DNA of 64,000 bases, from assembly GCF_020215665.1 (NCBI RefSeq), contig NZ_CP084061.1, positions 5,678,501 to 5,742,500 of the forward strand. Reading direction: 5' to 3'. Positions 25,884 to 45,673 of the stretch are shown here, in pieces (the stretch's first letter is position 1; the number at the start of each line of letters is the position of its first letter). Below the pieces are notes generated by a model that was given only the letters and a program-made list of their open reading frames with translations, had not been told where the DNA came from and did not search any database. Source of the stretch: Blautia parvula. Its GTDB lineage: Bacteria; Bacillota; Clostridia; Lachnospirales; Lachnospiraceae. A program made the translations under genes and the position numbers.

Positions 25884-25915
25884 TTCTGCAAGATAAAACA
25901 TCTGCATGACAAAAT
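25884..25915 (+). promoter_or_regulatory. 21-bp direct-repeat element, site A (amidohydrolase operon)
   Basis: CAAGAT at 25889 and CAAAAT at 25910 are 21 bp apart; an extra CAAAAT lies at 25879. It resembles sites B to F. A TGC-TAAAAT extended -10 box follows near 25941-25950. The gene starts 69 bp downstream of the site. Confidence 0.45.
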
Positions 25916-25983
25916 AAAGGATTCTGACTTTACAGATTACATGCTAAAATACATAAAAATACAACAAGGGAAAGGAGAAAAGT

Positions 25984-27618
25984 ATGTACAAACAACAAGA
26001 TAAATCTGCAGATGTCATATATTATAATGGTAAAATCTACACCATGGATCAGAATATGACAATTGTTCAGTCATTTGCTGTAAAGGGACAATATCTCATA
26101 GATACCGGAACCTTTGATGAAATGAAGCAGTATGGAAATTCTGATACAAAATATGTGAATCTGGACAGAGCCTGTGTGATACCGGGACTGATAGAGGGGC
26201 ATACCCATCTGCTGAAATTCGGTGAAGTATCTATGCAGATTGATTGTTTTTGGAAGCAAAAAGAAGAAATTTTTCAGCAGCTCCGCGAAAAAGCAGATAC
26301 GCTGTGTCCGGGGGAATGGATTCAAAGTGATTTCGGTTGGAACAACGAGGTATGGGAGGACAAAAGTTATCCCACAAAGGAAGAGCTTGACGCAGTGGTA
26401 CCGGACAATCCGGTATCGCTGGGAAGATGTGACGGACATATGCTCTGGCTGAACTCAAAAGCTTTGGAACTGGCAGGAATCACAAAGGATACACCAAATC
26501 CCCAGGGCGGGGAAATCCTGAAAAGAGAGGATGGGGAACTGTTGGGATGTGTCAGCGATAACGCATGTAAATTGGTAGTTGATAAAATCCCGCCGCTCAC
26601 AGAGAAGCAAATGGAGGAGGCACTGCTCTGTGCCCAGAATGAGTCCTTTAAGCTGGGATTTACTTCGGTTATGGCCATGAATGTGATATCCAGCCATATC
26701 CGCTGTATGAAAAAGCTTTTTGAAGAGGACAGGCTGCAGCTGCGGATCAGCGGAGCTCTGGGGGCACTGCCGGGTGAAGCGGATGATCTGTCGTGGAAGA
26801 GTTATTACAAGACAGGCCCGGAGATTGGACTGTATGAGAAACATCTTTCAATCCGTGCGGTGAAATATTTTGCAGACGGTTCTTTTGGGTCACAGAGTGC
26901 TGCATTGTATGAAGATTACACGGACAGGCCCGGATACAGGGGAAAATTAAATCATTCAGATGAAGAGTTATATGCCCTGGTCAAGGAAGCATACAGCCAT
27001 GGGTTCCAGGTCATCACTCATGCCATTGGGGACAGAGCAAACAGGCAGGTCATAGATACTTATGAGAAAGTGCTGGGTGAAAATTCCGGTGCGGACCACA
27101 GATTCAGGATTGAACATTTCCAGTTGGTGACAGAGGAGGATGTGGACCGAATCAGAAAACTGGGTATTCTTCCGGGGATGCAGGCTATCCATGCCCCGAG
27201 AAGCGCTCCCATGGCAGAACGCCGTATCGGAAAAGAGAGGGCAGCACGTTCATATGCCAGCGGAATGCCATGGAAAAAAGGAGTGAAGGTCATAGGCGGA
27301 TCTGACTCGCCGTCCTCCCCGGCCAATCCTTTCTGGGGAATTTATGCAGCGGTGACAAGGAAAGACCAGGATGGAAATCCGGAGGGCGGATGGTTTCCCG
27401 AAAACTGTATCTCCAGGGAGGCAGCCCTTAGGACTTATACCGACTGGGCCGCTTTTGGACAGTTCGAGGAGAATATAAAAGGCACCATTGAAAAAGGAAA
27501 GCTGGCTGACTTTGTAATATTGGACAGGGATATTATGGAGTGTCCTGTGGATGAAATAAAGGACATTTGTGTTTTAAAAACAGTTTTGGGTGGTAAATGT
27601 GTTTATGAACACATTTAA
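25984..27618 (+). CDS. YtcJ-like metal-dependent amidohydrolase
   Basis: The 544-residue protein is of the amidohydrolase-3 (YtcJ) group. It has an N-terminal beta domain (ADVIYYNGKIYTMDQNM), the metal-binding GLIEGHTHLLKFG, a histidine at VITHAIGDRANRQ, another in RFRIEHFQLV, and the late aspartate in VIGGSDSPSSPANPF. The end, KGKLADFVILDRDIM, closes the small beta domain. Members hydrolyse amides or related C-N bonds; the substrate is unknown. It starts after AAAGGAGAA and is followed 34 bp later by a GntP-type permease, suggesting uptake and hydrolysis of the same compound. There is no signal peptide, so it is cytoplasmic. Confidence 0.85.
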   Translation: MYKQQDKSADVIYYNGKIYTMDQNMTIVQSFAVKGQYLIDTGTFDEMKQYGNSDTKYVNLDRACVIPGLIEGHTHLLKFGEVSMQIDCFWKQKEEIFQQLREKADTLCPGEWIQSDFGWNNEVWEDKSYPTKEELDAVVPDNPVSLGRCDGHMLWLNSKALELAGITKDTPNPQGGEILKREDGELLGCVSDNACKLVVDKIPPLTEKQMEEALLCAQNESFKLGFTSVMAMNVISSHIRCMKKLFEEDRLQLRISGALGALPGEADDLSWKSYYKTGPEIGLYEKHLSIRAVKYFADGSFGSQSAALYEDYTDRPGYRGKLNHSDEELYALVKEAYSHGFQVITHAIGDRANRQVIDTYEKVLGENSGADHRFRIEHFQLVTEEDVDRIRKLGILPGMQAIHAPRSAPMAERRIGKERAARSYASGMPWKKGVKVIGGSDSPSSPANPFWGIYAAVTRKDQDGNPEGGWFPENCISREAALRTYTDWAAFGQFEENIKGTIEKGKLADFVILDRDIMECPVDEIKDICVLKTVLGGKCVYEHI

Positions 27619-27652
27619 ATAACAGTTTATATGGAAAACGGAGGAGGAAAAA

Positions 27653-29029
27653 ATGGTAACAGGACCTTTATTGATTGTTATATTTATCGTCTCACTGGCA
27701 TTTTTGCTGGTGACCATCATTAAGTTTAAATTGAATGCATTCGTATCATTGATCATCACATCATTTCTTACCGCTTTGCTTGTCAGAATGCCTTTTGGAG
27801 ATATTACGTCCGCAGTGGCAGATGGATTTTCCGGAACCATAGGCGGTATAGGAATTGTAACCGGTATGGGTGTCATGCTGGGAATGCTGCTTTTTGAATC
27901 AGGGGGAATCAATGCCATTGCAGACAAAATGATTCATCTGTTCGGGGAAAAGAACTCTCCGGCGGGACTTGGAATCGCTGCATATTTTGCGGGGATACCT
28001 GTATTTGGGGATGTGGTCACGGTTTTGTTTTCCACTATGGTCAGAGCTTTGTCCAGGAAGACAAATATCAGCCGTCTGTCATTTGTCTCCTGCTATGCGG
28101 TTGCAGCTTCCATAACCGCGGCGTGTGTAATTCCCACAGCTGGGCCTCTTGCAGTCTGTGAAAATATGGAGTTGAATATCGGGGTCTTCTTTGTGTATTC
28201 CACTCTGGCTGGCCTTGTTGGATTTTTGACCGGTGGTATTTTATGGGGAAAATATCTGGACCGTAAGGAAAAGAAAAGCGGATATGTGAGGGTTCTGGAT
28301 GAATTTGAACTGGAAGAACAAAAAACTATGGAAAAAGAAGAGAGCAGCGATAAGAAAATCTCTTTCGGAGCAGCGATGCTGATACTTCTGATACCAATTC
28401 TGATGATCGTGATTGGCAGCTTTGCATCGGTACTTCTCCCGGAAAACAATGGGGCAGTTCCGTATCTGGCCTTTATCGGAAATAAGAATCTGGCTATGGC
28501 AGTGGGCGTATTATGTGCCATGTTGATCGCAAAACCTTATATCAAAGGAAGTATGAGTGAGATCATGGGGCGCGGCCTGGATCAGGTGGGTATGATTCTG
28601 CTGATTACAGGTGCAGGCGGAGCGTTCGGTAAGGTAATTCAGCTGACCGGTATCGGAGATTATATGGCTCAGGTATTTGGAAATCTCCACATTCCTGTGC
28701 TTATACTGGGATTTGCGCTGGCACAGATCATCCGCTTGGCTCAGGGGTCGACCACAGTGGCCATCACAACTACTTCGGCAATCCTTTATTCAACAGTTAT
28801 TGCAGCAGGTACTTCGCCTATACTGGCAGCAGTTGCCATCTGTGCAGGGGGAGTGGGTCTGTCTCTTCCGAATGATTCCGGGTTCTGGTCAATCAGCAAA
28901 TTCAACAGAATCAGTATACCGGAGACCTTCCGCTGCTGGACCGTGGGCGGATTTTTGGGCGGACTTGGTATACTGGGAGCGGTACTTATATTGTCTTTAT
29001 TCCAGAATGTACTTCCCGGATTGCTTTAA
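27653..29029 (+). CDS. GntP-family organic-acid permease
   Basis: The 458-residue protein has around twelve membrane segments and GntP-type landmarks: AYFAGIPVFGDVVTVLF, ITAACVIPTAGPLAV, VGMILLITGAGGAFGKVIQ, RLAQGSTTVAITTTSAIL and LSLPNDSGFWSISKF. GntP proteins import gluconate or related hydroxy acids with protons. It follows the amidohydrolase by 34 bp behind a GGAGGAGG-like site. Just after the stop, another frame (about 29026-29103) continues with an acidic stretch ending at TAG, so a small indel near the end is possible. Confidence 0.85.
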   Translation: MVTGPLLIVIFIVSLAFLLVTIIKFKLNAFVSLIITSFLTALLVRMPFGDITSAVADGFSGTIGGIGIVTGMGVMLGMLLFESGGINAIADKMIHLFGEKNSPAGLGIAAYFAGIPVFGDVVTVLFSTMVRALSRKTNISRLSFVSCYAVAASITAACVIPTAGPLAVCENMELNIGVFFVYSTLAGLVGFLTGGILWGKYLDRKEKKSGYVRVLDEFELEEQKTMEKEESSDKKISFGAAMLILLIPILMIVIGSFASVLLPENNGAVPYLAFIGNKNLAMAVGVLCAMLIAKPYIKGSMSEIMGRGLDQVGMILLITGAGGAFGKVIQLTGIGDYMAQVFGNLHIPVLILGFALAQIIRLAQGSTTVAITTTSAILYSTVIAAGTSPILAAVAICAGGVGLSLPNDSGFWSISKFNRISIPETFRCWTVGGFLGGLGILGAVLILSLFQNVLPGLL

Positions 29030-29106
29030 AAAAGAAGCCAGATTCAGAGGAAACTGCTGTATCTGCAGAAACAGCAGAAAAAGAAATGAAAATCACAACA
29101 TAGATA

Positions 29107-29162
29107 ATCGCCTCCCCGGCCTTTTCCGTGTAGACTAAAGGCAAACGATACGGGGAGGTGAT
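29107..29162 (+). promoter_or_regulatory. Hairpin that pairs with the ribosome site of the next gene
   Basis: ATCGCCTCCCCG (29107-29118) pairs with CGGGGAGGTGAT (29151-29162) with a single G:U, and GCCTTT (29119-29124) pairs with AAAGGC inside. The right arm contains the GGGAGGT ribosome site of the gene at 29166, so the fold would hide it. Confidence 0.6.
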
Positions 29163-29165
29163 AAA

Positions 29166-30044
29166 ATGGACAAAGCAGGAAAACAGCAGATATGGGGGAG
29201 CCTGGGGCTTTTGACCGCCACATTGCTGTGGGGATTTTCTTTTGTGGTGGTAAAGGATTCCACGGAATCCATTCCCGTTCTCTATCTGCTGGCGCTGCGC
29301 TATTTGATCGCCTCTGTGGGGATGGCAGTTTTTTTACTTTGCAGGAGATCTTTACCGGCGGGGATACCTTTACCTGTTATAAAACAGGGTATGGTATTGG
29401 GAGTCCTGTTGTTTGTCAGCCAGTTTTTTCAGACATTGGGATGCAAGTATACGACAGCAGGCAAAAATGCATTCATCACAACCGTATACGTGATTCTTGT
29501 ACCATTTTTATATTGGTGGATAGAAAAAAGGCGCCCGGACAGAAAATGTGTTGCCGCTGCTTTCATAGCAATTTTGGGCATTGGCCTTTTATCCATACGA
29601 GGGGATCTGACGGTTCAAACCGGAGACTTTCTGACCGTCATATGTGGCGCAGGTCTTGCTTTGCATATTATATTTGTAGATAAATATACAAGGAAAACCG
29701 ACCCTGTGGTACTGACGGCCCTGCAGTTTTTCTTTGCAAACCTCATTTCCTGGCTCTGCATCCTAGCAGGGCAGATACCGTTTCCGATGCAGGTATTTGA
29801 ACCGGGGATGGCCGGGAAAATGTTGTATCTGGGAATCTTCAGTACTATGGCAGGGTTTCTTTTGCAGATTGTATGCCAGAAACGGATAAATCCGAATGTG
29901 GCATCCGTTCTTCTGACGACAGAAGCAGTGTTCGGAATGCTGTTTTCCGTATTACTTCTGCATGAGAGGTTTACGGCGCGTATGTTTGCAGGGTGCGTAT
30001 GTATGCTTGCGGCTGTGCTCATTTCGGAATTAAAAGCACAATAA
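29166..30044 (+). CDS. EamA-family transporter
   Basis: The 292-residue protein has ten hydrophobic segments in two five-helix repeats, starting LTATLLWGFSFVVVKDSTES. Family-typical parts are FFQTLGCKYTTAGKNAFITT and IFSTMAGFLLQIVCQKRIN, with KRINPNVASVLLTTEAVFG near the end. It probably exports a small metabolite; no substrate is evident. Its ribosome site is buried in a hairpin (29107-29162). A terminator follows. It is not closely related in sequence to the EamA protein at 16851. Confidence 0.85.
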   Translation: MDKAGKQQIWGSLGLLTATLLWGFSFVVVKDSTESIPVLYLLALRYLIASVGMAVFLLCRRSLPAGIPLPVIKQGMVLGVLLFVSQFFQTLGCKYTTAGKNAFITTVYVILVPFLYWWIEKRRPDRKCVAAAFIAILGIGLLSIRGDLTVQTGDFLTVICGAGLALHIIFVDKYTRKTDPVVLTALQFFFANLISWLCILAGQIPFPMQVFEPGMAGKMLYLGIFSTMAGFLLQIVCQKRINPNVASVLLTTEAVFGMLFSVLLLHERFTARMFAGCVCMLAAVLISELKAQ

Positions 30045-30066
30045 TGGATTGAATATTTATTTTAAA

Positions 30067-30173: not shown

Positions 30174-30206
30174 AATGACAGGATAAGAAATGTAGTGAAC
30201 AAGAAT
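30174..30206 (+). promoter_or_regulatory. 21-bp direct-repeat element, site B (aldolase operon)
   Basis: AATGACAGGATAAGAAATG (30174-30192) differs by one base from sites D and F. The second half-site CAAGAA is at 30200, 21 bp after CAGGAT at 30179. The gene begins 79 bp downstream. Confidence 0.7.
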
Positions 30207-30284
30207 AATAATCGTTTTACAGCGCATTTTCCGGTATTCTGATATCAAGAAAAAAACAACACAACCAAAAAAGGAGAATGCACT

Positions 30285-31076
30285 ATGTTAAACAAATTAA
30301 GAGAAAAGCTTAACGAAGGAAAAGCAACCGTCAACACCAGAATCTGGAGCACATGGCCCACGATCGTGGAGGCTGCAGCCTCAACCGGAAACTTTGATTA
30401 CTTTGAATTCCTGGCAGAGTATGCACCGTTCTCTTTCAATGATCTTGAGAATTTTGTCAGGACATGTGAACTGTACAACACAGGCTCCATGATCAAAGTG
30501 GATTTCCAGAACCGGTTCTATGTGGCACAGAAAGCGGCGGCCTGTGGTTTCCAGGCAATCCTGTTCACAGACCACGAGACACCGGAGCAGGTGAAAGAGA
30601 CCATTGAAAAATTACTGCCGAAGACACCGGAGGACAACGGCAAATTCGGTTATCCCAATGCAAGATGGATCAACTACCATCCGGAATTAAAACAGATGGA
30701 CTATGCGGCCATGAACCGCAGCCTTGTAAAAGCTTTTATGATCGAAAAGAAAGAGGCAATGGACAACATTGAAGAGATCTGCTCCATTCCCGGTGTGGAT
30801 ATGGTTCAGTTCGGACCTTCCGATTACTGCATGAGCAGAGGATGGAACTGTGCGGACCACAAAGAGGAGGTGCAGGCAGAGCACGAGAGAATGATCAGGA
30901 CCGCTTTAAAACACGGAGTGCAGCCAAGAGTGGAGATCGCCACCCTTGAAGACGCAGAATATTACAGAAATATGGGAGTAAAACATTTCTGCATCCTGGA
31001 TCAGATGGACATCCTCATGGCAGCCTGGACCGGTACCTGTAAGGATGTAAAAGATATGGCAGACGCCATCAAATAA
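30285..31076 (+). CDS. HpcH/HpaI-type aldolase family protein
   Basis: The 263-residue TIM-barrel protein resembles class II HpcH/HpaI aldolases, which cleave 2-keto acids to pyruvate and an aldehyde with a divalent metal. The family-like segments are LREKLNEGKATVNTRIWS at the start, VQFGPSDYCMSRGW in the substrate-loop region, and VEIATLEDAEYYRNMGVKHF at the end. The usual G-D-V-D metal motif is not obvious, so the activity could differ from classical members. It starts after AAAAAGGAG. It is first in an operon with a 2-hydroxyacid dehydrogenase and an unrecognised TIM-barrel protein, preceded by site B. Confidence 0.75.
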   Translation: MLNKLREKLNEGKATVNTRIWSTWPTIVEAAASTGNFDYFEFLAEYAPFSFNDLENFVRTCELYNTGSMIKVDFQNRFYVAQKAAACGFQAILFTDHETPEQVKETIEKLLPKTPEDNGKFGYPNARWINYHPELKQMDYAAMNRSLVKAFMIEKKEAMDNIEEICSIPGVDMVQFGPSDYCMSRGWNCADHKEEVQAEHERMIRTALKHGVQPRVEIATLEDAEYYRNMGVKHFCILDQMDILMAAWTGTCKDVKDMADAIK

Positions 31077-31102: not shown

Positions 31103-32068
31103 ATGAAGATTGTAGTATTAGACGGCTACACATTGAATCCCGGAGATCTGGACTGGAAAGGGATGGAAGCTTTTGGGCAGGTCACAGTCTATGACAGGAC
31201 ATCCCTGACGGATGTACAGGAGATCATTGACAGAATCGGTGATGCAGAGGTGGTCTACACAAATAAAACCCCGCTTCCGAGAGAGGTATTCGATGCATGC
31301 AGCAGCATCAGATTCGTAGGTGTACTGGCTACCGGGTACAACGTGGTGGATGTTGCCGCTGCAAAAGAAAAGGGAATCCCCGTTTCCAATATTCCAACAT
31401 ACGGCACTGCGGCTGTGGGACAGTTTGCCATTGCCATGCTGCTGGAAATCTGTCATCATGTGGCGCACCACAGTGACGCAGTCCACGAGGGGCGCTGGGA
31501 GAACAATGCGGACTGGTGTTTCTGGGATTATCCCCTGATCGAGCTTGCAGGCAAAACCATGGGAGTGATTGGTTTTGGCCGTATAGGGCAGGCCACAGGG
31601 CGCATTGCGAAAGCTCTTGGTATGCAGGTGATCGCCAATGATGAATATCCCAACAAATCCGGGGAAGAGATCGCAGAGTACGTCACAGTGGAAGAACTGT
31701 ATGCACGTGCGGACGTGATCGCCCTGCACTGCCCGCTCTTTCCAAGTACAGAGGGAATGATCAACAGAGAAAGTATTGCAAAGATGAAAGACGGTGTAAT
31801 TATCTTAAATAATTCCAGAGGACCGTTAATTGTGGAACAGGACCTGGCGGATGCTCTGAATACAGGAAAGGTTTATGCCGCAGGCCTGGATGTGGTGTCC
31901 ACAGAACCCATAAAAGGCAATAACCCGCTGCTGAAGGCAAAGAACTGTATCATAACCCCGCACATTTCCTGGGCCCCGAAAGAGAGCAGAAGCAGGCTTA
32001 TGAATATTGCCGTGGACAATTTGAAAGCCTTTACAGACGGCAGCCCTGTAAACGTAGTGAACCCATAA
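31103..32068 (+). CDS. D-isomer-specific 2-hydroxyacid dehydrogenase (glycerate dehydrogenase-like)
   Basis: The 321-residue NAD-dependent enzyme has the nucleotide fold motif GFGRIGQATGRIAKALGMQV and the catalytic triad of the family: Arg in NNSRGPLIVEQDL, Glu in DVVSTEPIKGNNPLL and His in ITPHISWAPKE. Such enzymes interconvert 2-keto acids and D-2-hydroxyacids, for example hydroxypyruvate and glycerate. The best guess here is hydroxypyruvate or glyoxylate reduction. It follows the aldolase by 26 bp behind a GGAGAG site. Confidence 0.9.
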   Translation: MKIVVLDGYTLNPGDLDWKGMEAFGQVTVYDRTSLTDVQEIIDRIGDAEVVYTNKTPLPREVFDACSSIRFVGVLATGYNVVDVAAAKEKGIPVSNIPTYGTAAVGQFAIAMLLEICHHVAHHSDAVHEGRWENNADWCFWDYPLIELAGKTMGVIGFGRIGQATGRIAKALGMQVIANDEYPNKSGEEIAEYVTVEELYARADVIALHCPLFPSTEGMINRESIAKMKDGVIILNNSRGPLIVEQDLADALNTGKVYAAGLDVVSTEPIKGNNPLLKAKNCIITPHISWAPKESRSRLMNIAVDNLKAFTDGSPVNVVNP

Positions 32069-32105: not shown

Positions 32106-32807
32106 ATGTCAATGTTAGATAAGATCATCATCATGCTGACCCATAATGATAAAACCGTGCCAAACGCAATTGAAATTTTTGAGGAAAACAAAGATCTTCC
32201 CATCCAGTATTGGGGATTCAAGGACGTTGGAATGGAACCTGAAAAAATGAAAGTGCTCTGCACAAAGATGAGAGAAGCCGGCAAGACTTCTTTTCTGGAA
32301 GTGGTGTCATACAGTGAAGAAGAATGTATGAGAGGTGCAAAACTGGCAGTGGAATGCGGCTTTGACTATCTCTTAGGCACTTTATACTATGACAGTGTAG
32401 CTGAGTATGTAAAAAAACAGGGATTAAAATACTGCCCGTTTGCAGGAAAGGTATCAAAGAGCCCCAGCATTTTGGAGGGAACTGTGGAGGAGATGCTTGC
32501 GCAGGAGGCAGCATTTGCGGAAAAGGGTGTATTCGGAACAGACCTGTTAGGATACCGCTATGTGGACGGAGATCCCACAGAACTCTCCGCAGAGTATATC
32601 CGCAAAGCAAAAACACCCGTCGTCCTGGCCGGAAGTATCGGCTCAGAGGAGAGGATGGAACTTGTAAAGGAGATGAATCCCTGGTGTTTTACCATGGGAA
32701 GCGCACTGTTTACAAAGAATTTTGTAAAGGAAGGGTCATTCAGGGATAATCTGGTGTATGTTGTTGGATTTTTAAAATATTTAGGAATAGAGGACGCTGT
32801 CGCTTAA
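32106..32807 (+). CDS. TIM-barrel protein of unknown function
   Basis: The 233-residue soluble protein has alternating strand and helix pieces of a beta/alpha barrel: KIIIMLTHNDKTVPNAIEIF, TSFLEVVSYSEEECMRGA, YLLGTLYYDSVAEY, then TPVVLAGSIGSEERMELVKE, MGSALF. The last two pieces look like the phosphate-binding end of ribulose-phosphate-type barrels, so a phosphosugar epimerase, decarboxylase or aldolase is possible. I cannot place it in a named family. It starts after AAAGGAGA, 37 bp behind the dehydrogenase, and ends the operon. Its company suggests it acts on an intermediate of the same pathway. Confidence 0.7.
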   Translation: MSMLDKIIIMLTHNDKTVPNAIEIFEENKDLPIQYWGFKDVGMEPEKMKVLCTKMREAGKTSFLEVVSYSEEECMRGAKLAVECGFDYLLGTLYYDSVAEYVKKQGLKYCPFAGKVSKSPSILEGTVEEMLAQEAAFAEKGVFGTDLLGYRYVDGDPTELSAEYIRKAKTPVVLAGSIGSEERMELVKEMNPWCFTMGSALFTKNFVKEGSFRDNLVYVVGFLKYLGIEDAVA

Positions 32808-33020: not shown

Positions 33021-33053
33021 AATGACAAGAAAAGAAACCCCGTGTGCAAGATA
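33021..33053 (+). promoter_or_regulatory. 21-bp direct-repeat element, site C (TRAP operon)
   Basis: AATGACAAGAAAAGAAA starts at 33021 and the second half-site CAAGAT begins at 33047, exactly 21 bp after CAAGAA at 33026. It lies 12 bp upstream of the -35 box at 33065. Confidence 0.7.
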
Positions 33054-33064
33054 TATTATAGGAT

Positions 33065-33092
33065 TTGACACATGTTTCCTGTATTCTATTAT
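33065..33092 (+). promoter_or_regulatory. Promoter of the TRAP transporter operon
   Basis: TTGACA (33065-33070) and TATTAT (33087-33092) have a 16-bp spacer. The TRAP binding-protein gene starts 274 bp after the -10 box. The leader between them (33099-33365) has a strong ribosome site (AAGGAG) before a four-codon frame at 33138 and no intact longer gene. Confidence 0.6.
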
Positions 33093-33365
33093 TACATTGA
33101 AGTGCTTGAAACAGTGACAGGGAAGGAGTGGATAAAATGCCCGGGGGATGAAAAAAACATGCAGATGAATCAGAAGATATATGGTAACTGTTTCTAACCG
33201 TCCAGACAGGTCTGCGCAATTCCTGCGCTGACCGTATGAGAAGACAGCGGTATCAGGCATCGGACTATCGCAAAGCGGTTTTCGGCAGTTGGAAAGGTTC
33301 TGTAAGCCGGTATTCGGAAGAGGACGGGACCATTACAAATAAAAAAGAAAGAAGGAAATCAGATT

Positions 33366-34418: not shown

Positions 34419-34456
34419 ACAGACGGCCTGTCCTGAAAAGGGGGTTAGGAGAAAAA

Positions 34457-36339: not shown

Positions 36340-36371
36340 AATGACAAGATAAGAAATGATAAATGCAAGAT
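36340..36371 (+). promoter_or_regulatory. 21-bp direct-repeat element, site D (dehydrogenase and kinase operon)
   Basis: AATGACAAGATAAGAAATG (36340-36358) is identical over 19 bases to site F. The second half-site CAAGAT is at 36366, 21 bp after the first at 36345. A TATGAT -10 candidate lies near 36402, with no good -35 box, as expected of an activated promoter. The gene starts 74 bp after the site. Confidence 0.75.
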
Positions 36372-36444
36372 TGCTCATCGACTCTGCAGGCGATTGCAGG
36401 TATGATGAAAACAGTGATCAAACAGCAGAAAGGAAGTAAAATCT

Positions 36445-37426: not shown

Positions 37427-38941
37427 ATGAAATTGCTGCTTGGTCTGGACATTGGAACCACTGCAATGAAGATCGCCCTGTTTGACAGGACAGGTGCACT
37501 GCTGGCTGTCTCCACCCAGGAATACGATTTACTGACTCCTGCCCCTAATTATGTGGAGGAAAAACCGGAAGTATATTGGGATGCCTTCTGCACAGGTCTG
37601 AAGGATATAAAAAGCCGTTACACCATAGCAAAGGACGCGCAGATTTCCCTTGCCATGTCCGCCCAGGGGGAGACCATCTTCTTTCTGGACAAGGACGGCA
37701 GGCCCCTAAGAAATGCCATTGTATGGATGGACAACCGCGCAGTCAGGGAGGCAGAGATGCTTAAGGAGGCCTTCGGAAATGCCAAGTGCTATCAGAAAAC
37801 AGGCCAGGTCAGTTTTGAGGCCTGCTGGCCCGCATCGAAAATCCTCTGGGTACGTGAGCATGAGCCGGAAGTTTTTCAGAACACAGACAAGTTTCTCCTG
37901 ATCGAGGATTACTTTATCTACAGGCTGACAGGAAAATATGCCACAGAGCCATCTCTTGTCTGCTCCTCCACCTACTGGGATATTATTGAAAGAAGTTACT
38001 GGCAGGAGATGCTGGATTTTCTGGGAATCAAGGAATCACAGCTTGCCCCTGTCAGGGAATCCGGGGAGATAGTGGGAAAAATCCTGCCCGAGGTAGCAGC
38101 AGAGCTGGGCCTCGGAACGGATCTTACGGTCTGCACCGGCGCGCTTGACCAGGCGGCAGGCGCCATCGGTGCAGGAAATATCAGGGAGGGCATGTTCTCC
38201 GAGACTGTGGGTGCGGCACTTGCCGTATGTGTTCCGGTCAACAAACCCGTATTTGATCCTGCATGTAAAATGCCCCTGTTCTGTTTCCCTGTAAACGGAA
38301 TGTATATGATCCACACATTCACTAACGGAGGCATGACCCTGCGCTGGTTCCGGGATAAATTCTGTGAGGTGGAAATGCTGGCTGAGAAAAGAGGAGGTCA
38401 GGATGCCTACGATATGATCAGTAAGCAGGTGGAAAAGATACCGGCCGGTTCTGACGGCCTGGTCATGCTTCCTCATCTGTCGGGGTCCCTGGCCCCGGAT
38501 GTAAATTCCAAGGCGAAAGGTGTCTGGTTCGGGTTTACCCTCCAGCATACCATGCCGCATTTTATGAGATCTATTATGGAATCTTTGGGCTATATCTTGC
38601 GGCGGAATATAGAAGCACTGAACGACATGGGAATCCGGGTAAAAGAGATTCGTTCCCTGGGCGGCGGTTCCAAGAGCCGGGTATGGTGTCAGATCAAGGC
38701 AGATATCAATCAGGTGACACTGGAGACCGTCAAATCCGTGGAGGCCGCATCTCTGGGAGCCGCCATACTGGCAGGGACTGCCACGGGCATCTTTGAGAGT
38801 GTGGAAAGCGCAGTGGACAGTATGGTGGAAGTCAAAGAACGCATCACACCCTCTGCCCACAACCGGGAGGCCTATGAGAAAGGGTACGCTATGTACCGCA
38901 AACTCTTCTCTGACCTGACCGAATGCTTTGAAAAAATGTAA
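37427..38941 (+). CDS. FGGY-family carbohydrate kinase, xylulokinase/gluconokinase-like
   Basis: The 504-residue kinase begins with LLLGLDIGTTAMKIALFD and continues with AMSAQGETIFFLDKDGRPL and AIVWMDNRAV. The first actin-like domain ends near TGALDQAAGAIGAG. The second has SLGGGSKSRVWCQIKADI and AASLGAAILAGTATGIF. Its pattern is closer to xylulokinase and gluconokinase types than to glycerol kinase. It follows the dehydrogenase by 13 bp after GAGGAGGTGG. Probable substrate: the ketose or sugar acid made by, or handled with, the isomerase-fold protein at 39795. Confidence 0.85.
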   Translation: MKLLLGLDIGTTAMKIALFDRTGALLAVSTQEYDLLTPAPNYVEEKPEVYWDAFCTGLKDIKSRYTIAKDAQISLAMSAQGETIFFLDKDGRPLRNAIVWMDNRAVREAEMLKEAFGNAKCYQKTGQVSFEACWPASKILWVREHEPEVFQNTDKFLLIEDYFIYRLTGKYATEPSLVCSSTYWDIIERSYWQEMLDFLGIKESQLAPVRESGEIVGKILPEVAAELGLGTDLTVCTGALDQAAGAIGAGNIREGMFSETVGAALAVCVPVNKPVFDPACKMPLFCFPVNGMYMIHTFTNGGMTLRWFRDKFCEVEMLAEKRGGQDAYDMISKQVEKIPAGSDGLVMLPHLSGSLAPDVNSKAKGVWFGFTLQHTMPHFMRSIMESLGYILRRNIEALNDMGIRVKEIRSLGGGSKSRVWCQIKADINQVTLETVKSVEAASLGAAILAGTATGIFESVESAVDSMVEVKERITPSAHNREAYEKGYAMYRKLFSDLTECFEKM

Positions 38942-38971: not shown

Positions 38972-39436
38972 ATGAGCGAAAAAAATATCCGGTCTGCCAT
39001 GAACACCATGACGCACGGCGTATATGTCATTGGTACCCATGCAGACGGAAAATATAATCTGATGACAGCAGCCTGGCTGTCCCAGGTATCGGGAAGGCCG
39101 CCCATGCTGATGGCGGCAGTCTCAAAGAGCCACTACACCGCAGAGCTTCTGAAGGACAGCAGTAGATTTTCCGTGAGCGTTCTGACAAAGGATCAGAGAG
39201 AGACTGCCCTGAAATGCGGCAGTGTCAGCGGAAGAAAAAAGGACAAGCTGGCGGAAGTGGATGTGGAATTTACAGAGGAGGGGCTGCCCTTTATCAAAGG
39301 TGCTGCCGCCTGCATCATATGTGAGGTGACGAGTGTGACGGAAAGCTCTGACCACTGTATTTTTATTGCGGAAGCGGTCAGTGGACAGGTATTTTCCGGA
39401 GAGGCACTTTTATACAGAGAAAAGGATTTCTTTTAG
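38972..39436 (+). CDS. Flavin reductase-like FMN-binding split-barrel protein
   Basis: The 154-residue protein resembles the flavin reductase (FMN-binding split-barrel) family: MNTMTHGVYVIGTHADGKYN, MTAAWLSQVSGRPPMLMAAV, SRFSVSVLTKDQRETALKCG and GKKKD-like SGRKKDKLAEVD. Members bind FMN and reduce flavin or serve as small oxidoreductases. There is no partner oxygenase, as expected for an anaerobe, so it may supply reduced flavin or reduce a pathway intermediate. It starts after AAGGATG in the same operon. Confidence 0.8.
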   Translation: MSEKNIRSAMNTMTHGVYVIGTHADGKYNLMTAAWLSQVSGRPPMLMAAVSKSHYTAELLKDSSRFSVSVLTKDQRETALKCGSVSGRKKDKLAEVDVEFTEEGLPFIKGAAACIICEVTSVTESSDHCIFIAEAVSGQVFSGEALLYREKDFF

Positions 39437-39449
39437 GAGGGGGAAAGAT

Positions 39450-39782
39450 ATGAAAGTTATGAGAGAGAAAGAGGCGCGGATTTCCCTGGACGGACCGGAA
39501 GTCTGCAGAGAATATCTGGAAACAGGTAAGATCACATTTGGTTCCTCCACCCTTCTGCCCGGACAGACCGGGGGCATCGATCCCGGCCATCCGTTGTCCC
39601 ATGAAGTGTTTTTTGTGAGCCGTGGACATGTGATTATGAGAAATCCCCATACGGGAGGACACTATGAGCTTTTTGAGGGGGATATCATCCTGGTAGAGGA
39701 GGGGGAACCCCACGAACTGACAAATATAGGAATGGAGCCGGCAGTCATTACATGGAGCTGTGCTCCCAGCCATTTCAAATAG
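39450..39782 (+). CDS. Small cupin-domain protein
   Basis: The 110-residue single-domain cupin has HPLSHEVFFVSRGHVIM as the first cupin motif region and LFEGDIILVEEGEPHELTNI as the second. His and Glu are placed to bind one metal. ATG 39450 follows AGGAGGGGG; an in-frame ATG at 39366 would overlap the preceding gene. In sugar operons small cupins often act as isomerases, mutarotase-like enzymes or sensors; which applies here is unknown. Confidence 0.8.
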   Translation: MKVMREKEARISLDGPEVCREYLETGKITFGSSTLLPGQTGGIDPGHPLSHEVFFVSRGHVIMRNPHTGGHYELFEGDIILVEEGEPHELTNIGMEPAVITWSCAPSHFK

Positions 39783-39794: not shown

Positions 39795-41132
39795 ATGAAC
39801 CAGCCAAAAGTAGGAGTTGTAGGCGTCACCTGCAGATTTGAGAGCGGGGGACAAAGAGCAGAGGAATTGATAAACGGAGTGAAAAACGCACTGAGCAGCC
39901 AGGGGTTAGAAGTGGTATGCGCAGATAAGGTGGCATGGGATGCGGCGGATGCGGTGGACGTATGCAGACAGTTTAAAAAAGAGGATTTGGATGCGCTGGT
40001 TATTGTGGAAGTGACATGGATCATGGACTCCATGCAGTATATCTTCATGAACGAGCTGCAGATTCCCACAATTTTCTGGGCAGTGCCTTACACAGAGACA
40101 TTTTCTATCGGATGTGTACAGCATTTCGGTTCCATCCTGAAAGGTCAGGGCATCGAATACGAGTACGTTTACGGACTGCCGGAAGATGAGGCACCTGCAG
40201 GCAGAGTAAAAGCAGCGGCCCAGGCATCCCAGGTCATCAGGGCGGTAAAGGGAATGCGCCTTGCCCTTGTGGGCCCCCGTCAGACATGGCGTGTGGCAGG
40301 TCCCCAGGATATGTCCGCAGAGGAGTGGGAATTTTCTAAAAAATTTGGTGTGACCCTGATCCATATTGAAATGAGCGAGATTACGGAAGGGGCAGATAAG
40401 ATCAGCGATGAGGAAGCTGAAAAGACACTTAACTGCCTGTCAAAGCGCACCGGAAAGGTGCTGGCGGATAAGGAGACCATGCTGTATATGGCAAAGGTAT
40501 ATCTCTCTACAAAAAAAGTCATTGAGCGGTATTCCCTGGACGCCATGGCAGCGGAGTGTTATCCCATGTACAGCGGACTGATGAACCTGACATCCTCCTG
40601 GCTGGCAGACGAGGGGATGATCGTGGACACAGAGGGAGATATCGGCCACACCATGGTGATGTATATGCTGAATCTGGCGGCAAAGGGCGGCGCCTGTGCC
40701 CTCGGCGAGGTGGGCAGCATGGATGATGTGAACGATATCCTGGCCCTGGCTCATGAGGGGAGCACAGCCCATTCCCTGGCAGAGAGCATCGACAAGGTAC
40801 AGATTTCACCAAGCGGCGAGAAAGGCACATTCGTGGGCGTGCCGCTGAAGGGCATGGAAAGTGTGACCGTTTCCAGCATTGTGGGAAACAGGGGACAGTA
40901 TAAGCTTCTGGTGGAAAAGGCCGATGTGGAGGCAGCCACCCATGAGGAATGGGTAGAGGGGGGAGAGAAACTCCTTGTTAAACTCCACGTGTCCGGAAAA
41001 GCCAGCCAGGTGGTAAATACACTGATGGAAAAGGGAATGGACCATCATCTTCTGGTGAAAGAAGGGGATTATACAGATGTGATGAGCCTGGTGTGTAAGT
41101 TTATGGGGATTGAGAAGGTTACGTTTTGCTAA
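39795..41132 (+). CDS. L-fucose/L-arabinose-isomerase-fold protein, second type
   Basis: The 445-residue protein has the same overall plan as the protein at 6299 but little direct identity. The N-terminal Rossmann-like region is LDALVIVEVTWIMDSMQYIF, the middle has GMRLALVGPRQTWRV, and the metal region reads IVDTEGDIGHTMVMYMLN, where Glu and Asp would be ligands. It ends with a beta domain (EKLLVKLHVSGKASQV). It may be an aldose-ketose isomerase for the pathway substrate. It is the last gene of the operon and follows the cupin by 12 bp. Confidence 0.7.
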   Translation: MNQPKVGVVGVTCRFESGGQRAEELINGVKNALSSQGLEVVCADKVAWDAADAVDVCRQFKKEDLDALVIVEVTWIMDSMQYIFMNELQIPTIFWAVPYTETFSIGCVQHFGSILKGQGIEYEYVYGLPEDEAPAGRVKAAAQASQVIRAVKGMRLALVGPRQTWRVAGPQDMSAEEWEFSKKFGVTLIHIEMSEITEGADKISDEEAEKTLNCLSKRTGKVLADKETMLYMAKVYLSTKKVIERYSLDAMAAECYPMYSGLMNLTSSWLADEGMIVDTEGDIGHTMVMYMLNLAAKGGACALGEVGSMDDVNDILALAHEGSTAHSLAESIDKVQISPSGEKGTFVGVPLKGMESVTVSSIVGNRGQYKLLVEKADVEAATHEEWVEGGEKLLVKLHVSGKASQVVNTLMEKGMDHHLLVKEGDYTDVMSLVCKFMGIEKVTFC

Positions 41133-41426: not shown

Positions 41427-41473
41427 GTATACAGGTTCCTGAGGCTTTCGCTGCTTTGGAAAGACGAGGCAAT

Positions 41474-42424
41474 ATGAACAGAAACAGAAACAGAAGGAGA
41501 AGCATAAGCAGGGCACTCAGAAAAAAACAAGTAAACAGAAATTACAAGGATAGCCTGTTCCGCATGATCTTCGGGAACAGAAAGGCTGCACTGAAGCTTT
41601 ATAATGCCATCAATCATTCCAATTATCAAAATCCGGAGGATTTGGAGATCACTACGATCGAAGGGGCCATTTATATGGGCGTAAAGAATGACCTGTCCTT
41701 TTTGATCGACAGTGTGATGAATCTGTATGAAGCCCAATCTACCAGAAATCCCAATATGCCTCTGCGGGGATTGATCTATTTCGCAAGAGTATATCAGGGA
41801 TATGTGGAAAAGAGAGAGCTTGATCTGTATTCCGGCAGCCGTATCAAAATCCCATTGCCGCGGTATATTGTATTTTATAATGGATCGGAGGAAGAACCGG
41901 ACCGCCGGGAGTACCGTCTGAGTGACGCATTTGAGAAGAAGCAGGACAGTTATTGCCTGGAATGTGTGGCCACGGTTCTGAATATTAATGCAGGACATAA
42001 CAGACAGTTGATGGAAGACTGCAGCTTGCTGTGGCAGTATGCTTCTTTTGTATCCAAGGTGCGGCGGTATCTGGAGATGTACCCCGAAGATTTGGAGGGT
42101 GCAGTGGACAGGGCGGTGGAAGAATGTATTGCGGAAGGTATTCTTGCGGATTTTCTGAAGAAAGAGCGTGGAGAGGTGAAAGACGTGATACTGACAGAGT
42201 ATAATGCGGAACGCCATATTAAAAATGAGAAGAAGCTCAGTTATGAGGAAGGGGTCGAAAAAGGAATAGAAAAAGGTCTGGAACGGGGGATAAGGGCATT
42301 TATAACTGAAAAGGAGGAGGAAGAAGCAGGGAAAACAATTATTATAGAAAAATTGCAGAAGCATTTTATGCTGGACAGAGAGAAAGCAGAATATTATTAT
42401 GAGAAATTTTCTAAAAAGATGTAA
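41474..42424 (+). CDS. Rpn/PD-(D/E)XK nuclease-family protein
   Basis: The 316-residue protein opens with a very basic Arg/Asn tail (RNRNRRRSISRALRKK) and the family start NYKDSLFRMIFGNRKAAL. The PD-(D/E)XK core is DLSFLIDSVMNLYEAQST, where Asp and the Glu-x-Gln pair are expected to bind metal. The C-terminal third is an acidic coiled segment (EEGVEKGIEKGLERGIRAF), also typical. Related proteins are called recombination-promoting nucleases or PD-(D/E)XK transposase-family proteins and are often mobile and multicopy. It stands alone with its own promoter, and no inverted repeats or target duplication were seen. Confidence 0.8.
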   Translation: MNRNRNRRRSISRALRKKQVNRNYKDSLFRMIFGNRKAALKLYNAINHSNYQNPEDLEITTIEGAIYMGVKNDLSFLIDSVMNLYEAQSTRNPNMPLRGLIYFARVYQGYVEKRELDLYSGSRIKIPLPRYIVFYNGSEEEPDRREYRLSDAFEKKQDSYCLECVATVLNINAGHNRQLMEDCSLLWQYASFVSKVRRYLEMYPEDLEGAVDRAVEECIAEGILADFLKKERGEVKDVILTEYNAERHIKNEKKLSYEEGVEKGIEKGLERGIRAFITEKEEEEAGKTIIIEKLQKHFMLDREKAEYYYEKFSKKM

Positions 42425-42479: not shown

Positions 42480-42535
42480 CTCCTTTTTGGTGAGGATTAA
42501 GATATGACAATTCTTATCAAAAAGGAGTATTTTTT
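42480..42535 (+). terminator. Long terminator-like hairpin after the nuclease gene
   Basis: The arms 42480-42498 and 42509-42527 pair over 19 bp with three G:U pairs and a 10-nt loop, and a T-rich tract follows. The right arm also contains AAAGGAG, which is well placed before a 15-codon frame at 42536-42583. Confidence 0.65.
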
Positions 42536-42593
42536 ATGCCGGAAAAGGTCCGAATTCAGGGCCGTCACAATCAGAACGGATAGGTAAATCTTA

Positions 42594-42625
42594 AAAAGCA
42601 ATATAAGACATATACCGGGCAAGAT
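42594..42625 (+). promoter_or_regulatory. 21-bp direct-repeat element, site E (Ldh2-type gene)
   Basis: A degenerate copy: CAATAT at 42599, followed by AAG as in the other sites, and CAAGAT at 42620, exactly 21 bp on. Thirteen of the first nineteen bases match the consensus. It ends six bases before the -35 box at 42632. Confidence 0.5.
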
Positions 42626-42631
42626 ATTAAA

Positions 42632-42660
42632 TTGAATAAGAACAAGGCCAATCGTATAAT
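42632..42660 (+). promoter_or_regulatory. Promoter of the Ldh2-type dehydrogenase gene
   Basis: TTGAAT (42632-42637) and TATAAT (42655-42660) have a 17-bp spacer, 54 bp before the start codon. Confidence 0.7.
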
Positions 42661-42714
42661 CGATTTATAATATAAAAGAAATAAAAAGCAAAAAAATAAA
42701 TGGAGGAAAGCAAT

Positions 42715-43785
42715 ATGAAGAGTTATAAAGTATCAGCAGCAGAGCTTAAGAATTTTACAAAAACCGTGTTTGAAAAAACAGGTTTGCAGGAAAGTGACGC
42801 GCAGGCTATAGCGGAATTGCTGGTCCATGCAGATGTGCGCGGCGTGAGCAGCCATGGAGTTATCCGCATGAAGCCTTATATCGAAAAGATAAACGGCGGC
42901 GGAGCTTCCCTAAAAAGTACATATCCTGTGGTGCAGGAGACAGCCAATACAGCAGTTATTGACGCGGAAGGCGGTCTCGGTGCAGTTGCAGGGGAAAAGG
43001 CGGTGAAGATTGCCAGGGAAAAGGCGAAGAACAGCCTGATCTCTATTGTGTCCGTAAAGAACAGCAACCATTTCGGCATGGCAGGCCACTGGGCTATGAA
43101 GCTGGCCGGGGAGGACTGTATCGGTTTTGCCTGCTCCAACACGGACCCCTCCATGGCACCTCCCGGAGTGACGATTCCGTTTATCGGCAATAATCCGTTC
43201 TCTTTTGCCTTTGCAGCAGGTGAAAAATACCCGGAAGTCTGTGTGGACATGGCGACCAGCGCGGCGGCATTTGGAAAAGCCAAGGCTTATGCCCTGGCAG
43301 GAAAACCGATTCCGGAGGGATGGCTTCTTGACAAGCAGGGCAACCCCACCACAGAATTGTCCGAATACGGAATGCTGGTTCCCATGGCAGAGCACAAGGG
43401 GTTCGGTGTGGCCTTTATTGTGGAATTGTTTGCCACACTGCTCTCAGGCGGTGTATTGTCACCTAATGTAAATGACCAGGATCTTCCGGCCACACCGGAG
43501 CTGTCCAGCCAGAGCTTTGGCTGTATCAATATTCGGGCTTTCAGGGAGCTTTCACAGTTCCATAAGGATGCTCAGGAGTACATTGAGGATATCAAGGCCC
43601 TTCCTGTAAAAGAGGGCGTGGGCAGCGCAAAATATCCCGGGGAGATTGAATACACCAACAAACAGAGGAGTCTGGAACATGGAATCATTCTCCCGGAGGC
43701 TTTGGCAGAGCAGCTTGCTGAGACAGGCAGGTCACTTGGAATCCAGATGGCTGAGATGGCATTTCTCACAGCGGAAGAAGCATAA
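42715..43785 (+). CDS. Ldh2/YiaK-type NAD(P)-dependent dehydrogenase (malate/L-lactate dehydrogenase family)
   Basis: The 356-residue enzyme belongs to the Ldh2/MDH2 family, whose fold differs from ordinary Rossmann dehydrogenases. Family marks are LVHADVRGVSSHGVIRMKPY with the catalytic His, SVKNSNHFGMAGHWAMKLA, PFIGNNPFSFAF and VDMATSAAAFGKAKAYALAG. Members reduce 2-keto acids or 2,3-diketo-L-gulonate. It starts at ATG 42715 after TGGAGGA; ATG 42700 lacks its own site. With the TRAP transporter and FGGY kinase it recalls the E. coli yia cluster, though the set is not the same. Confidence 0.9.
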   Translation: MKSYKVSAAELKNFTKTVFEKTGLQESDAQAIAELLVHADVRGVSSHGVIRMKPYIEKINGGGASLKSTYPVVQETANTAVIDAEGGLGAVAGEKAVKIAREKAKNSLISIVSVKNSNHFGMAGHWAMKLAGEDCIGFACSNTDPSMAPPGVTIPFIGNNPFSFAFAAGEKYPEVCVDMATSAAAFGKAKAYALAGKPIPEGWLLDKQGNPTTELSEYGMLVPMAEHKGFGVAFIVELFATLLSGGVLSPNVNDQDLPATPELSSQSFGCINIRAFRELSQFHKDAQEYIEDIKALPVKEGVGSAKYPGEIEYTNKQRSLEHGIILPEALAEQLAETGRSLGIQMAEMAFLTAEEA

Positions 43786-43844
43786 TTCTGGATTCGCAGA
43801 GGGAATATCTCTGCGAGGAATAAATAGAAAATGGAGAAAAGTTT

Positions 43845-44678
43845 ATGAAAAGCCTGTATGTGTCCGATCTGGATGGGACGTTGTTCAATAAAAAGAAAAG
43901 GATCTCCGATAGATCAGCGGATATCATCAACCGCTGCATAGAAAAGGGAATGCTGTTTTCAGTGGCTACAGCGCGTATGCCTTACGGCTGTGATTACCGG
44001 TTGAAGGACCTGCATATGAATGTACCGGGAATTGTGACAAACGGGGTATTTTTATATGATTTTCAGTCCGAAGAAATCATTTCCGCGGAAGCTGTTCCTG
44101 TAAGTGCAGCGCAGAAAGTGATACGTGCGTTCAAAGACTGCGGGATGTCCTGCTTTTTGTACACGTATGACAGCCGGGGAATCAGCATTTATTATGATGG
44201 AAAGAGGATGGAGGAGCAGACCCAGTATTACAGTGACAGGGCGCTTCAGAAATGTGCAGAGGTCACCTTTACAAAGAAAGCAGAGGAAATGGTCCAGAAG
44301 GGAGATCCTGTATATCTGACCTGTACCGGGACGGAAGAAGAGCTGAAACCGGTGTGCAGGAAACTGGATGAGATAGAGGAGATCAAGTATTCCTTTTATC
44401 TGAATATCTATAACGGGATGTACTGCCTGGAGGTGTTCAGTGCACATGCAAGCAAGAAAAACGCTCTTAAGAAGCTGATGAAAATCACCGGGAGCGAGGA
44501 GCTGGTGGTGTTCGGGGATAACTTCAATGATCTGTCCATGATAGAGATTGCGGATAGGAGCTATGCGCCCATGAATGCGCTGCCTGAAATAAAGAAAGCG
44601 GTGGACCGGGTGCTGCCTGACTGTGATCATGACGGTGTAGCGGCGTTTCTGGCTGAGGAGTGGGGACTTAACGTCTAG
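43845..44678 (+). CDS. Cof-type HAD phosphatase
   Basis: The 277-residue protein is a HAD hydrolase of the Cof/YidA type. Motif I is VSDLDGTLFNKKK with the nucleophile Asp, motif II is the Thr in SVATARMPYG, motif III is the Lys near KKNALKKL, and motif IV is VVFGDNFNDLSMIE. A cap domain lies between about residues 80 and 190. It probably removes phosphate from a sugar phosphate. It follows the Ldh2-type gene by 59 bp and is probably co-transcribed. Confidence 0.9.
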   Translation: MKSLYVSDLDGTLFNKKKRISDRSADIINRCIEKGMLFSVATARMPYGCDYRLKDLHMNVPGIVTNGVFLYDFQSEEIISAEAVPVSAAQKVIRAFKDCGMSCFLYTYDSRGISIYYDGKRMEEQTQYYSDRALQKCAEVTFTKKAEEMVQKGDPVYLTCTGTEEELKPVCRKLDEIEEIKYSFYLNIYNGMYCLEVFSAHASKKNALKKLMKITGSEELVVFGDNFNDLSMIEIADRSYAPMNALPEIKKAVDRVLPDCDHDGVAAFLAEEWGLNV

Positions 44679-44693
44679 TTGCTTGGCTATCAG

Positions 44694-44732
44694 AAAAAAA
44701 ATTGGAGAGGGACTGGCAGCAGTTCCTCTCAA
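44694..44732 (-). terminator. Terminator of the AraC regulator gene
   Basis: On the minus strand the stem formed by 44732-44720 and 44715-44702 (one bulged base) is followed by eight T. It overlaps the stop region of the AraC gene. Confidence 0.8.
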
Positions 44733-45586
44733 TTATTATTAGCCTGTGTATGTTGTTCTTTGTATTCCGCAGGATTCATCCCCATGTATCTCTTGAATGT
44801 CTTATAGAAATAACTGTAGTTATTGAACCCCACCTTCTCTGCGGCCTTGTTGATGGTCATATCTCCGGTGAGATAGTGGGCTGCCTGGGCTATGCGTTTT
44901 TCCACAATATAATTGGTGAGCGTATAATTCGTCACCTTCTTAAAAATCCTGCAGATGTAATATTCACTGTAACTCACTTCCTGGGCCAGTACACCCAGAG
45001 ACAGATCCTCACTCAAATGGTTGTTGATATAGTCCACCAGTTTGGCTATCATGGACACATGCCGGGAATCCGTATTATCAAAATGGATGCCGTCATAGCA
45101 GTCGCTGAACAGGTAGGAGGCCAGCTGATGGATCAGCGCCTTTTCAAAGATATCCTTGCCATGGGCAGGCTTCTGGTCCCGGTATTGTTCCAGAATCCGC
45201 AGATATTTGTCAAAGCATTTTCCTTCCACATGGAAAATTGGATAATTCCTGCTGTACTTGCTGAAGATATCCAGAAGGTTTGACTGGGCAGTATTGAAAG
45301 ACAGGAGCAGATTGGGGTCAATGCTGATGCTGAAACGCTCGTAATAAGTATTCTTGTTATAGATCAGGGTGTGCGGATCAAACATGTTGATGAGGGCAAT
45401 ATCCCCCCGCCTGATCAGATATTCTTTGCCGTTGATTTTGAAAATACCTGCATTCCCCAGATAGACAACAATTTCATAAAAGTCATGATAATGCAGGTTG
45501 GAACGCATCTCATTTTTGGGTGTCCGAAACAGACAGTCATAGTCTCCCTTGTAAATGGAAGAGCGGGATAAGAATTTGGCTTCCAT
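44729..45586 (-). CDS. AraC-family regulator, probable controller of the 21-bp-repeat regulon
   Basis: The 285-residue regulator has an N-terminal cupin sensor (RSNLHYHDFYEIVVYLGNAG, INGKEYLIRRGDIALINMFD) and a C-terminal pair of helix-turn-helix units (SLGVLAQEVSYSEYYICRIF and INKAAEKVGFNNYSYFYKTF). It starts at ATG 45586 behind an AAGGAGGAAAA site. Site F lies 56 bp upstream in the divergent promoter region. AraC proteins commonly bind two direct half-sites about 21 bp apart, the arrangement of sites A to F. It is therefore the best candidate activator for these operons; this is inferred from position and spacing. Confidence 0.9.
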   Translation of the reverse strand: MEAKFLSRSSIYKGDYDCLFRTPKNEMRSNLHYHDFYEIVVYLGNAGIFKINGKEYLIRRGDIALINMFDPHTLIYNKNTYYERFSISIDPNLLLSFNTAQSNLLDIFSKYSRNYPIFHVEGKCFDKYLRILEQYRDQKPAHGKDIFEKALIHQLASYLFSDCYDGIHFDNTDSRHVSMIAKLVDYINNHLSEDLSLGVLAQEVSYSEYYICRIFKKVTNYTLTNYIVEKRIAQAAHYLTGDMTINKAAEKVGFNNYSYFYKTFKRYMGMNPAEYKEQHTQANNN

Positions 45587-45641
45587 GGGTTTTCCTCCTT
45601 TATATTTTAAGTTTACTGCCGGATATTCCTAAAGTCAATGA

Positions 45642-45673
45642 AATGACAAGATAAGAAATGTTCTCGGCAAGAT
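45642..45673 (+). promoter_or_regulatory. 21-bp direct-repeat element, site F (HPr-like gene and AraC gene)
   Basis: AATGACAAGATAAGAAATG (45642-45660) is identical to site D. CAAGAT at 45647 and again at 45668 are 21 bp apart. It is in the divergent region between the AraC gene and the HPr-like gene, pointing to the latter, whose start is 67 bp downstream. Confidence 0.75.

Follow-up and report, generated by a model that had tools for sequence, protein, structure and literature searches.

Seven neighbouring promoters of Blautia parvula share a paired direct repeat, the probable operator of a linked AraC-family regulator

When the same short repeat stands in front of several neighbouring operons, does it mark them as targets of one regulator, and if so of which? 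We addressed this question in a 64,000-nucleotide stretch of the Blautia parvula genome (NCBI RefSeq assembly GCF_020215665.1, contig NZ_CP084061.1, positions 5,678,501 to 5,742,500 of the forward strand), the whole of which is called the window here and within which site coordinates are counted. A preliminary description, made from the letters of the window, had proposed six promoters with two CAAGAT-like boxes each as the regulon of an AraC-family protein encoded at 44729–45586. Our analysis of the sequence leads us to conclude, with a probability of roughly 0.87, that seven such sites are operators of this protein, which would act on them by class II activation. Because one double site occurs at seven neighbouring promoters and reappears beside the regulator in relatives, it is very probable that a single regulator activates this 21-kb set of genes. 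The sites are as follows.

Site A, 25884–25922, plus strand: two CAAGAT-N5-AT units with a period of 21; −10 TAAAAT at 25945–25950; upstream of the amidohydrolase–GntP genes
Site G, 29070–29108, plus strand: −10 TAGACT at 29131–29136; upstream of the EamA open reading frame (ORF) starting at 29166
Site B, 30174–30212, plus strand: −10 TATTCT at 30235–30240; upstream of the HpcH aldolase operon
Site C, 33021–33059, plus strand: −10 TATTCT at 33082–33087; upstream of the TRAP transporter operon
Site D, 36340–36378, plus strand: −10 TATGAT at 36401–36406; upstream of the 2-hydroxyacid dehydrogenase–FGGY kinase operon
Site E, 42594–42632, plus strand: −10 TATAAT at 42655–42660; upstream of the Ldh_2–HAD operon
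Site F, 45642–45680, plus strand: −10 TACTAT at 45703–45708; upstream of the HPr-like–acetyltransferase operon and divergent from araC

A search of the window sequence found the paired boxes of sites A–F, exactly 21 bp apart on the plus strand, just where the preliminary description had placed them. The order of similarity that it gave also held: AATGACAAGATAAGAAATG, 19 bases long, is common to D and F, one base is changed in B and three in C, and A and E are more degenerate than these four. Counted from where the 33-bp core ends, the start codons as listed follow after 68 bp (A), 79 bp (B), 313 bp (C), 73 bp (D), 74 bp (E) and 66 bp (F), so that the proposed 67–90 bp for five of the six sites was right to within one base; for site E, an alternative start at 42715, preceded by a Shine-Dalgarno-like GGAGG, lies at 89 bp. 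The sites themselves were thus real, and it was their number, the unit and the strength of site A that needed revision. Site G is the next-best position after A–F when the window is ranked with the 33-bp matrix, which brings the count to seven; the repeat unit is CAAGAT-N5-AT, the AT being kept in 15 distal and 16 proximal halves among 17 sites from several genomes; and site A is weak. Over the same 17 sites the distal half holds 21.3 bits of information and the proximal half 16.4 bits.

How specific is this motif? Two hexamers with at most two mismatches in total occur at 10 positions on the plus strand of the window and at 7 on the minus strand, so the hexamer pair is not rare and it is the longer motif that is. 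When each site was left out of the 33-bp matrix in turn, B, C, D, E and F each ranked first of 127,931 positions. In the 6.25-Mb genome, RATGACARGAWAAGAAA has four exact matches, and these are sites B, C, D and F. A 44-position model built from A–F returned those six as the best matches of the genome (E-values from 2.6e-8 to 8.1e-5, the latter for A, all in-sample), and a 70-position model built from 12 sites including G gave all seven an E-value of at most 2.7e-7, with the rest of the genome reaching at most 13.2 bits (again in-sample). A matrix made from nine sites of other genomes, with that of the relative G009 excluded, placed B–G at ranks 1–6 of 127,920 window positions (site G at rank 5, out of sample); site A rose to seventh once the G009 site joined the matrix. 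With 105 of 116 genomes giving a match at E ≤ 1, the E-values that the motif models assign can be taken only as approximate, and we therefore relied on ranks, bit scores and independent features. We also looked for the motif at similar strength throughout the genome and found that, at model strength, it is confined to this locus.

One such independent feature is the promoter. A TAnnnT hexamer resembling a −10 box starts at offset 61 in all seven window sites, and this hexamer played no part in locating them. Across 13 sites (the seven of the window, three of strain VE202-21 and one each of L023, L024 and G009), the −10 stood at offset 61 in 12, compared with 21 of 1,248 at the other offsets from 33 to 129 and a maximum of 2 of 13 at any one of these; with four sites from G493 added, it stood at 61 in 14 of 17 and at 61 or 62 in 16 of 17. 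At a 17-bp spacing, the −35 hexamers of the 13 sites match TTGACA at only 1–4 of 6 bases, and the proximal half-site ends with its AT on the first −35 base. Counted from the start of the proximal CAAGAT, the −10 of the window sites begins 35 bases further on. A plain sigma promoter with CAAGAT as its −35 was rejected, the 29 bases between CAAGAT and the −10 being too far. The AraC I1–I2 sites at araBAD and the XylS sites at Pm are likewise direct-repeat half-sites with a period of about 21 bp, the proximal one touching the −35; the recognition sequence differs from that of the window operators. The sequence features expected of a class II AraC-type promoter were present here, namely direct-repeat half-sites at about 21 bp, a proximal half that touches the −35, a −10 in constant helical phase with the repeat and a poor −35. 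An operator that lies upstream of the −10, touches a poor −35 and keeps a fixed offset has the layout of an activator-dependent class II promoter.

The DNA around the boxes also bears on whether the repeat arose by recent duplication of promoter DNA and serves no particular regulator. The 19 bases common to D and F are what such copying might leave; however, the DNA between and downstream of the half-sites is unalike except for the −10, and the motif is conserved at the orthologous genes of VE202-21, which are themselves 70–79% identical in DNA. We consider duplication, which this pattern of conservation contradicts, an extremely improbable source of the repeat.

We next turn to the regulator and its own putative promoter.

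44729–45586, minus strand: AraC-family regulator of 285 amino acids (Pfam HTH_18 and AraC_binding)
45610–45638, minus strand: putative araC promoter, TTGACT-N17-TAAACT, with its −35 three bases from the outer edge of site F

The protein has a C-terminal double helix-turn-helix (HTH_18, 1.6e-20 at residues 200–277) and an N-terminal cupin-like effector domain (AraC_binding, 1.1e-9 at residues 30–97; 38.5 bits with a cut-off of 21.1), and both features that mark the AraC/XylS family are therefore present. The corresponding araC promoter layout in VE202-21 (L022) is TTGACA-N17-TAAACT. With site F so close to the −35 of araC and in the opposite orientation, and with a similar layout in L022, repression of araC is plausible, and the linked protein might bind all the sites as a repressor or mixed regulator instead of an activator. 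This we regard as improbable, because operators that only touch a poor −35 at a fixed offset, upstream of the −10, have an activator-dependent arrangement. A second AraC-family gene lies elsewhere in the window, at 17888–18754; in an alignment, its product is 18% identical to the 44729–45586 protein.

Does the operator accompany this AraC protein in other genomes? In the genome collection, which yielded 60 relatives of the AraC protein, the closest were those of VE202-21 (L022, ∼75–76% identical), L023 (52%) and L024 (50–51%), the next being L025 at 39%; an orthologue in G493 (77%) was found after the motif model had been built. At E ≤ 1e-50 the protein was detected in four of 397 genomes of the family, these being B. 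parvula itself, G493, G620 (39% identical) and G581, which an identical site shows to be VE202-21 again. Searches of 145 relatives at E ≤ 1e-60 and of 392 genomes of the order at E ≤ 1e-45 found none beyond the genome of the window, and plasmid and viral collections yielded no relatives at the limits used.

The motif tracked the AraC protein in VE202-21, G493, L023 and L024, so that comparative genomics supports the AraC regulon that had been proposed from the window. In VE202-21, a model built from the window sites alone scored 24.5 bits before an HD-domain–ABC transporter operon, 22.3 bits before the operon of HpcH and a 233-residue protein (the product of 32106–32807 in the window) on a separate contig, and 18.8 bits between the AraC and acetyltransferase genes, a position equivalent to site F. 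The best genome match in L023 and in L024 (21.8 and 19.6 bits) lies before the EamA orthologue adjoining the AraC gene. The four best genome matches in G493 (29.8, 27.3, 24.0 and 21.4 bits; the fifth reaches 14.6) lie at 102,923–111,639, none of them more than 15 kb from the AraC gene at 117,118–117,966. They precede a dehydrogenase–FGGY–cupin–isomerase–Ldh_2 operon, an HpcH–233-residue operon, an HD–ABC operon orthologous to that of VE202-21 (75–88%) and a HAD gene.

These comparisons also bear on the idea that the operators serve another regulator, be it an AraC paralogue or an OmpR-type protein such as that of 50930–51628, with araC as a mere neighbour. The window does hold the second AraC protein and the OmpR-type regulator, and a response-regulator gene (30% identical) lies upstream of the HpcH operon in VE202-21. 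Yet around the motif in L023 (14.3 kb) and L024 (20.8 kb) only AraC and EamA were found out of 29 window proteins (tblastn, 1e-8). In both genomes whose AraC protein is 39% identical, the motif has either disappeared or can no longer be recognised, the best matches being 12.9 bits in G620 and 13.0 bits in the genome of L025, below model strength. It is absent, too, from all nine stretches of 3.3–3.7 kb that carry homologues of the 233-residue protein (37–49% identical) in eight genomes without the araC gene. Inspected by eye, the AraC proteins of the window, L022, L023 and L024 have similar recognition regions, and divergence sets in with L025. We think it quite unlikely that a different regulator uses these sites.

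Several observations weigh against control of all seven promoters by the linked AraC protein. That site A is as strong as the others is contradicted by its ranks, tenth of 127,931 in the leave-one-out test and eleventh out of sample without its own G009 relative, and site G came only seventh genome-wide by the A–F model, with 14.6 bits against a background of 14.2. In VE202-21, offset 61 carries no −10 at the site that separates the AraC and acetyltransferase genes, two of the four G493 sites have theirs at 62, and a fourth match in VE202-21 (L107, 16 bits) has neither a −10 nor a related gene. In a control set of 115 relatives that lack the AraC gene (absence judged at E ≤ 1e-60; the motif scan used stricter filters), two reach at least 19.6 bits, as strong as L023 and L024: G042 with 25.3 and G071 with 21.1, both matches having no −10 at 61 and no window-related gene in the 3 kb examined. 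G620 keeps homologues of the FGGY, 233-residue, cupin, flavin-reductase and isomerase-like proteins despite a motif of at most 12.9 bits; in its catabolic cluster (L193, 3283–10151) the operator has possibly drifted, and a repeat search there gave only a degenerate candidate before the FGGY gene (L193, 9098, minus strand), which we do not claim. Finally, a loose first look counted 153 AraC-family candidates in the genome of the window, so that a paralogue could bind the operators too.

What would such a regulon do? The genes downstream of the operators are listed here, assigned from Pfam and NCBIfam unless stated otherwise.

25984–27618, plus strand: amidohydrolase (Amidohydro_3)
27653–29029, plus strand: GntP-family permease
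29166–30044, plus strand: EamA-family transporter
30285–31076, plus strand: HpcH/HpaI-type aldolase
31103–32068, plus strand: D-2-hydroxyacid dehydrogenase 1
32106–32807, plus strand: protein of 233 amino acids, a predicted (beta/alpha) barrel with no Pfam family above cut-off
33366–36291, plus strand: TRAP transporter DctP–DctQ–DctM
36445–37413, plus strand: D-2-hydroxyacid dehydrogenase 2
37427–38941, plus strand: FGGY carbohydrate kinase
38972–39436, plus strand: flavin reductase-like protein
39447–39782, plus strand: small cupin protein
39795–41132, plus strand: fucose-isomerase-like protein, distant from the sulfoquinovose isomerase SftI (weak profile matches)
42715–43785, plus strand: Ldh_2-family dehydrogenase (start taken as 42715 in preference to 42700, where the ORF begins)
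43845–44678, plus strand: HAD-family phosphatase
45740–45973, plus strand: HPr-like protein of 77 amino acids (Pfam PTS-HPr, 3.4e-6)
45970–46602, plus strand: maltose-acetyltransferase-like hexapeptide protein

Judged by these family assignments, the gene set looks like one for taking up and cleaving a sugar or sugar acid, and the substrate can be proposed only to that level. We envisage that a sugar or sugar-acid effector would bind the cupin domain of the AraC protein, which may then occupy both half-sites, the strong distal one and the weak proximal one, and contact RNA polymerase at the −35, compensating for the missing −35 consensus as class II activators do. The target operons would provide uptake through the TRAP, GntP and EamA transporters, and breakdown through the isomerase-like protein, the FGGY kinase, the aldolase, the three dehydrogenases and the phosphatase, possibly as one pathway. 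It is also probable that site F, which separates araC from the HPr-like operon, sets the level of araC itself.

A similar arrangement has been proposed for MtlR of Pseudomonas fluorescens, a regulator of the AraC/XylS type. MtlR is proposed to bind AGTGC-N5-AGTAT-N7-AGTGC-N5-AGGAT at PmtlE, with a strong distal half and a weak proximal half that is needed for inducer control (PMC4514859). Bipartite direct-repeat half-sites upstream of the −35, the stronger one distal, are thus common to both systems; in contrast, the MtlR site has another sequence with a period of 22 (21 here) and was studied at one promoter (seven here), and the inducers are known (PMC4514859).

The fucose-isomerase-like protein and the Ldh_2 dehydrogenase have SftI and L-sulfolactate dehydrogenase as their best NCBIfam matches, both far below cut-off. 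For the former, the SftI model gave 103.9 bits with a cut-off of 700, so that it does not belong to SftI, and degradation of sulfoquinovose by the sulfo-TAL route was rejected as the function of the locus; the Pfam fucose isomerase domains matched at E-values of 0.006 and 0.027, likewise below cut-off. Sulfoquinovose clusters of Faecalicatena also contain a sugar isomerase, and the accessible part of that report describes a repressor candidate and does not contain the word AraC (PMC11659671). Unlike those clusters, as that part presents them, the locus gave no match to a transaldolase or transketolase family among the regulon proteins scanned, a search for transaldolase that did not extend to the remainder of the genome.

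The fold predicted for the 233-residue protein (predicted local distance difference test, pLDDT, 89.5) resembles the barrels of N-acetylmannosamine-6-phosphate (ManNAc-6-P) epimerase and 2-keto-3-deoxy-6-phosphogluconate (KDPG)-type aldolase, with a template modelling (TM) score of ∼0.6 to these. Sequence searches of the PDB returned no relatives of this protein or of the isomerase-like protein at E ≤ 0.1. Homologues of the 233-residue protein occur elsewhere in L163 and L167, beside genes that we take to encode a HAD phosphatase and a protein resembling VanW; the homologues suggest a wider, uncharacterised barrel family.

A description of this regulon was not found in the open-licence literature searched. 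The locus offers a defined, testable regulon in which a single regulator is paired with seven promoters and a consensus of measured spacing, and four other genomes are at hand for comparison. The 233-residue and isomerase-like proteins, which have no family name, can now be grouped with a pathway and with the likely class of its inducer, and screening for substrates becomes practical.

How might the same operator come to stand before different genes? Uptake systems differ, with TRAP in the window versus ABC in two relatives, while the operators stay conserved. Tentatively, and at slightly less than even odds, we suggest that the regulon is transferable: the AraC protein and its operator would move among related clostridial bacteria together with a catabolic core for an undescribed sugar or sugar acid (isomerase-like protein, FGGY kinase, cupin, Ldh_2, HpcH aldolase and 233-residue barrel), uptake systems would be swapped and re-wired through the same operator, and a fossil of the operator would persist in a relative without the regulator. 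That relative is G009. The left flank of the island (ABC, GGDEF and integrase genes) is conserved at ∼80–83% in G008 and G009, and window bases from ∼26 to 60 kb are missing from the corresponding place in G009, whose genome has no match to the AraC gene at 1e-60. G009 retains the region of site A 3′ of the integrase gene, with both boxes and TAAAAT at offset 61 (L141, ∼3933–4511), followed by two short, remnant-like ORFs of 83 and 81 amino acids. The simplest reading is that G009 lost the island and the first operator was left behind; the alternative, less simple, is that the island was gained beside a pre-existing site.

A few further features of the locus are recorded here. A tyrosine-integrase-type gene stands directly before the first operator in the window (24702–25838) and before that of the main operon in VE202-21 (L119, 105–1055); the two integrases are only ∼25% identical. 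The leader downstream of site C, from the −10 to dctP, is nearly 0.3 kb long (window 33088–33365), far longer than those of the other six operons. Between operons D and E lies an ORF for 322 amino acids (41456–42424) without a Pfam or NCBIfam match, whose product presumably resembles proteins of the PD-(D/E)XK/Rpn type; the isomerase-like and Ldh_2 genes of VE202-21 and G493 adjoin each other, so that a gene of this kind would not fit between them. The usual histidine region of HPr is GLHARPA. In the HPr-like protein under site F this region reads SIRDITELVNIA, without the histidine, and the serine motif KSILGIFSL is kept; judged by the roles of these residues, we take the protein to resemble a Crh-type regulatory HPr.

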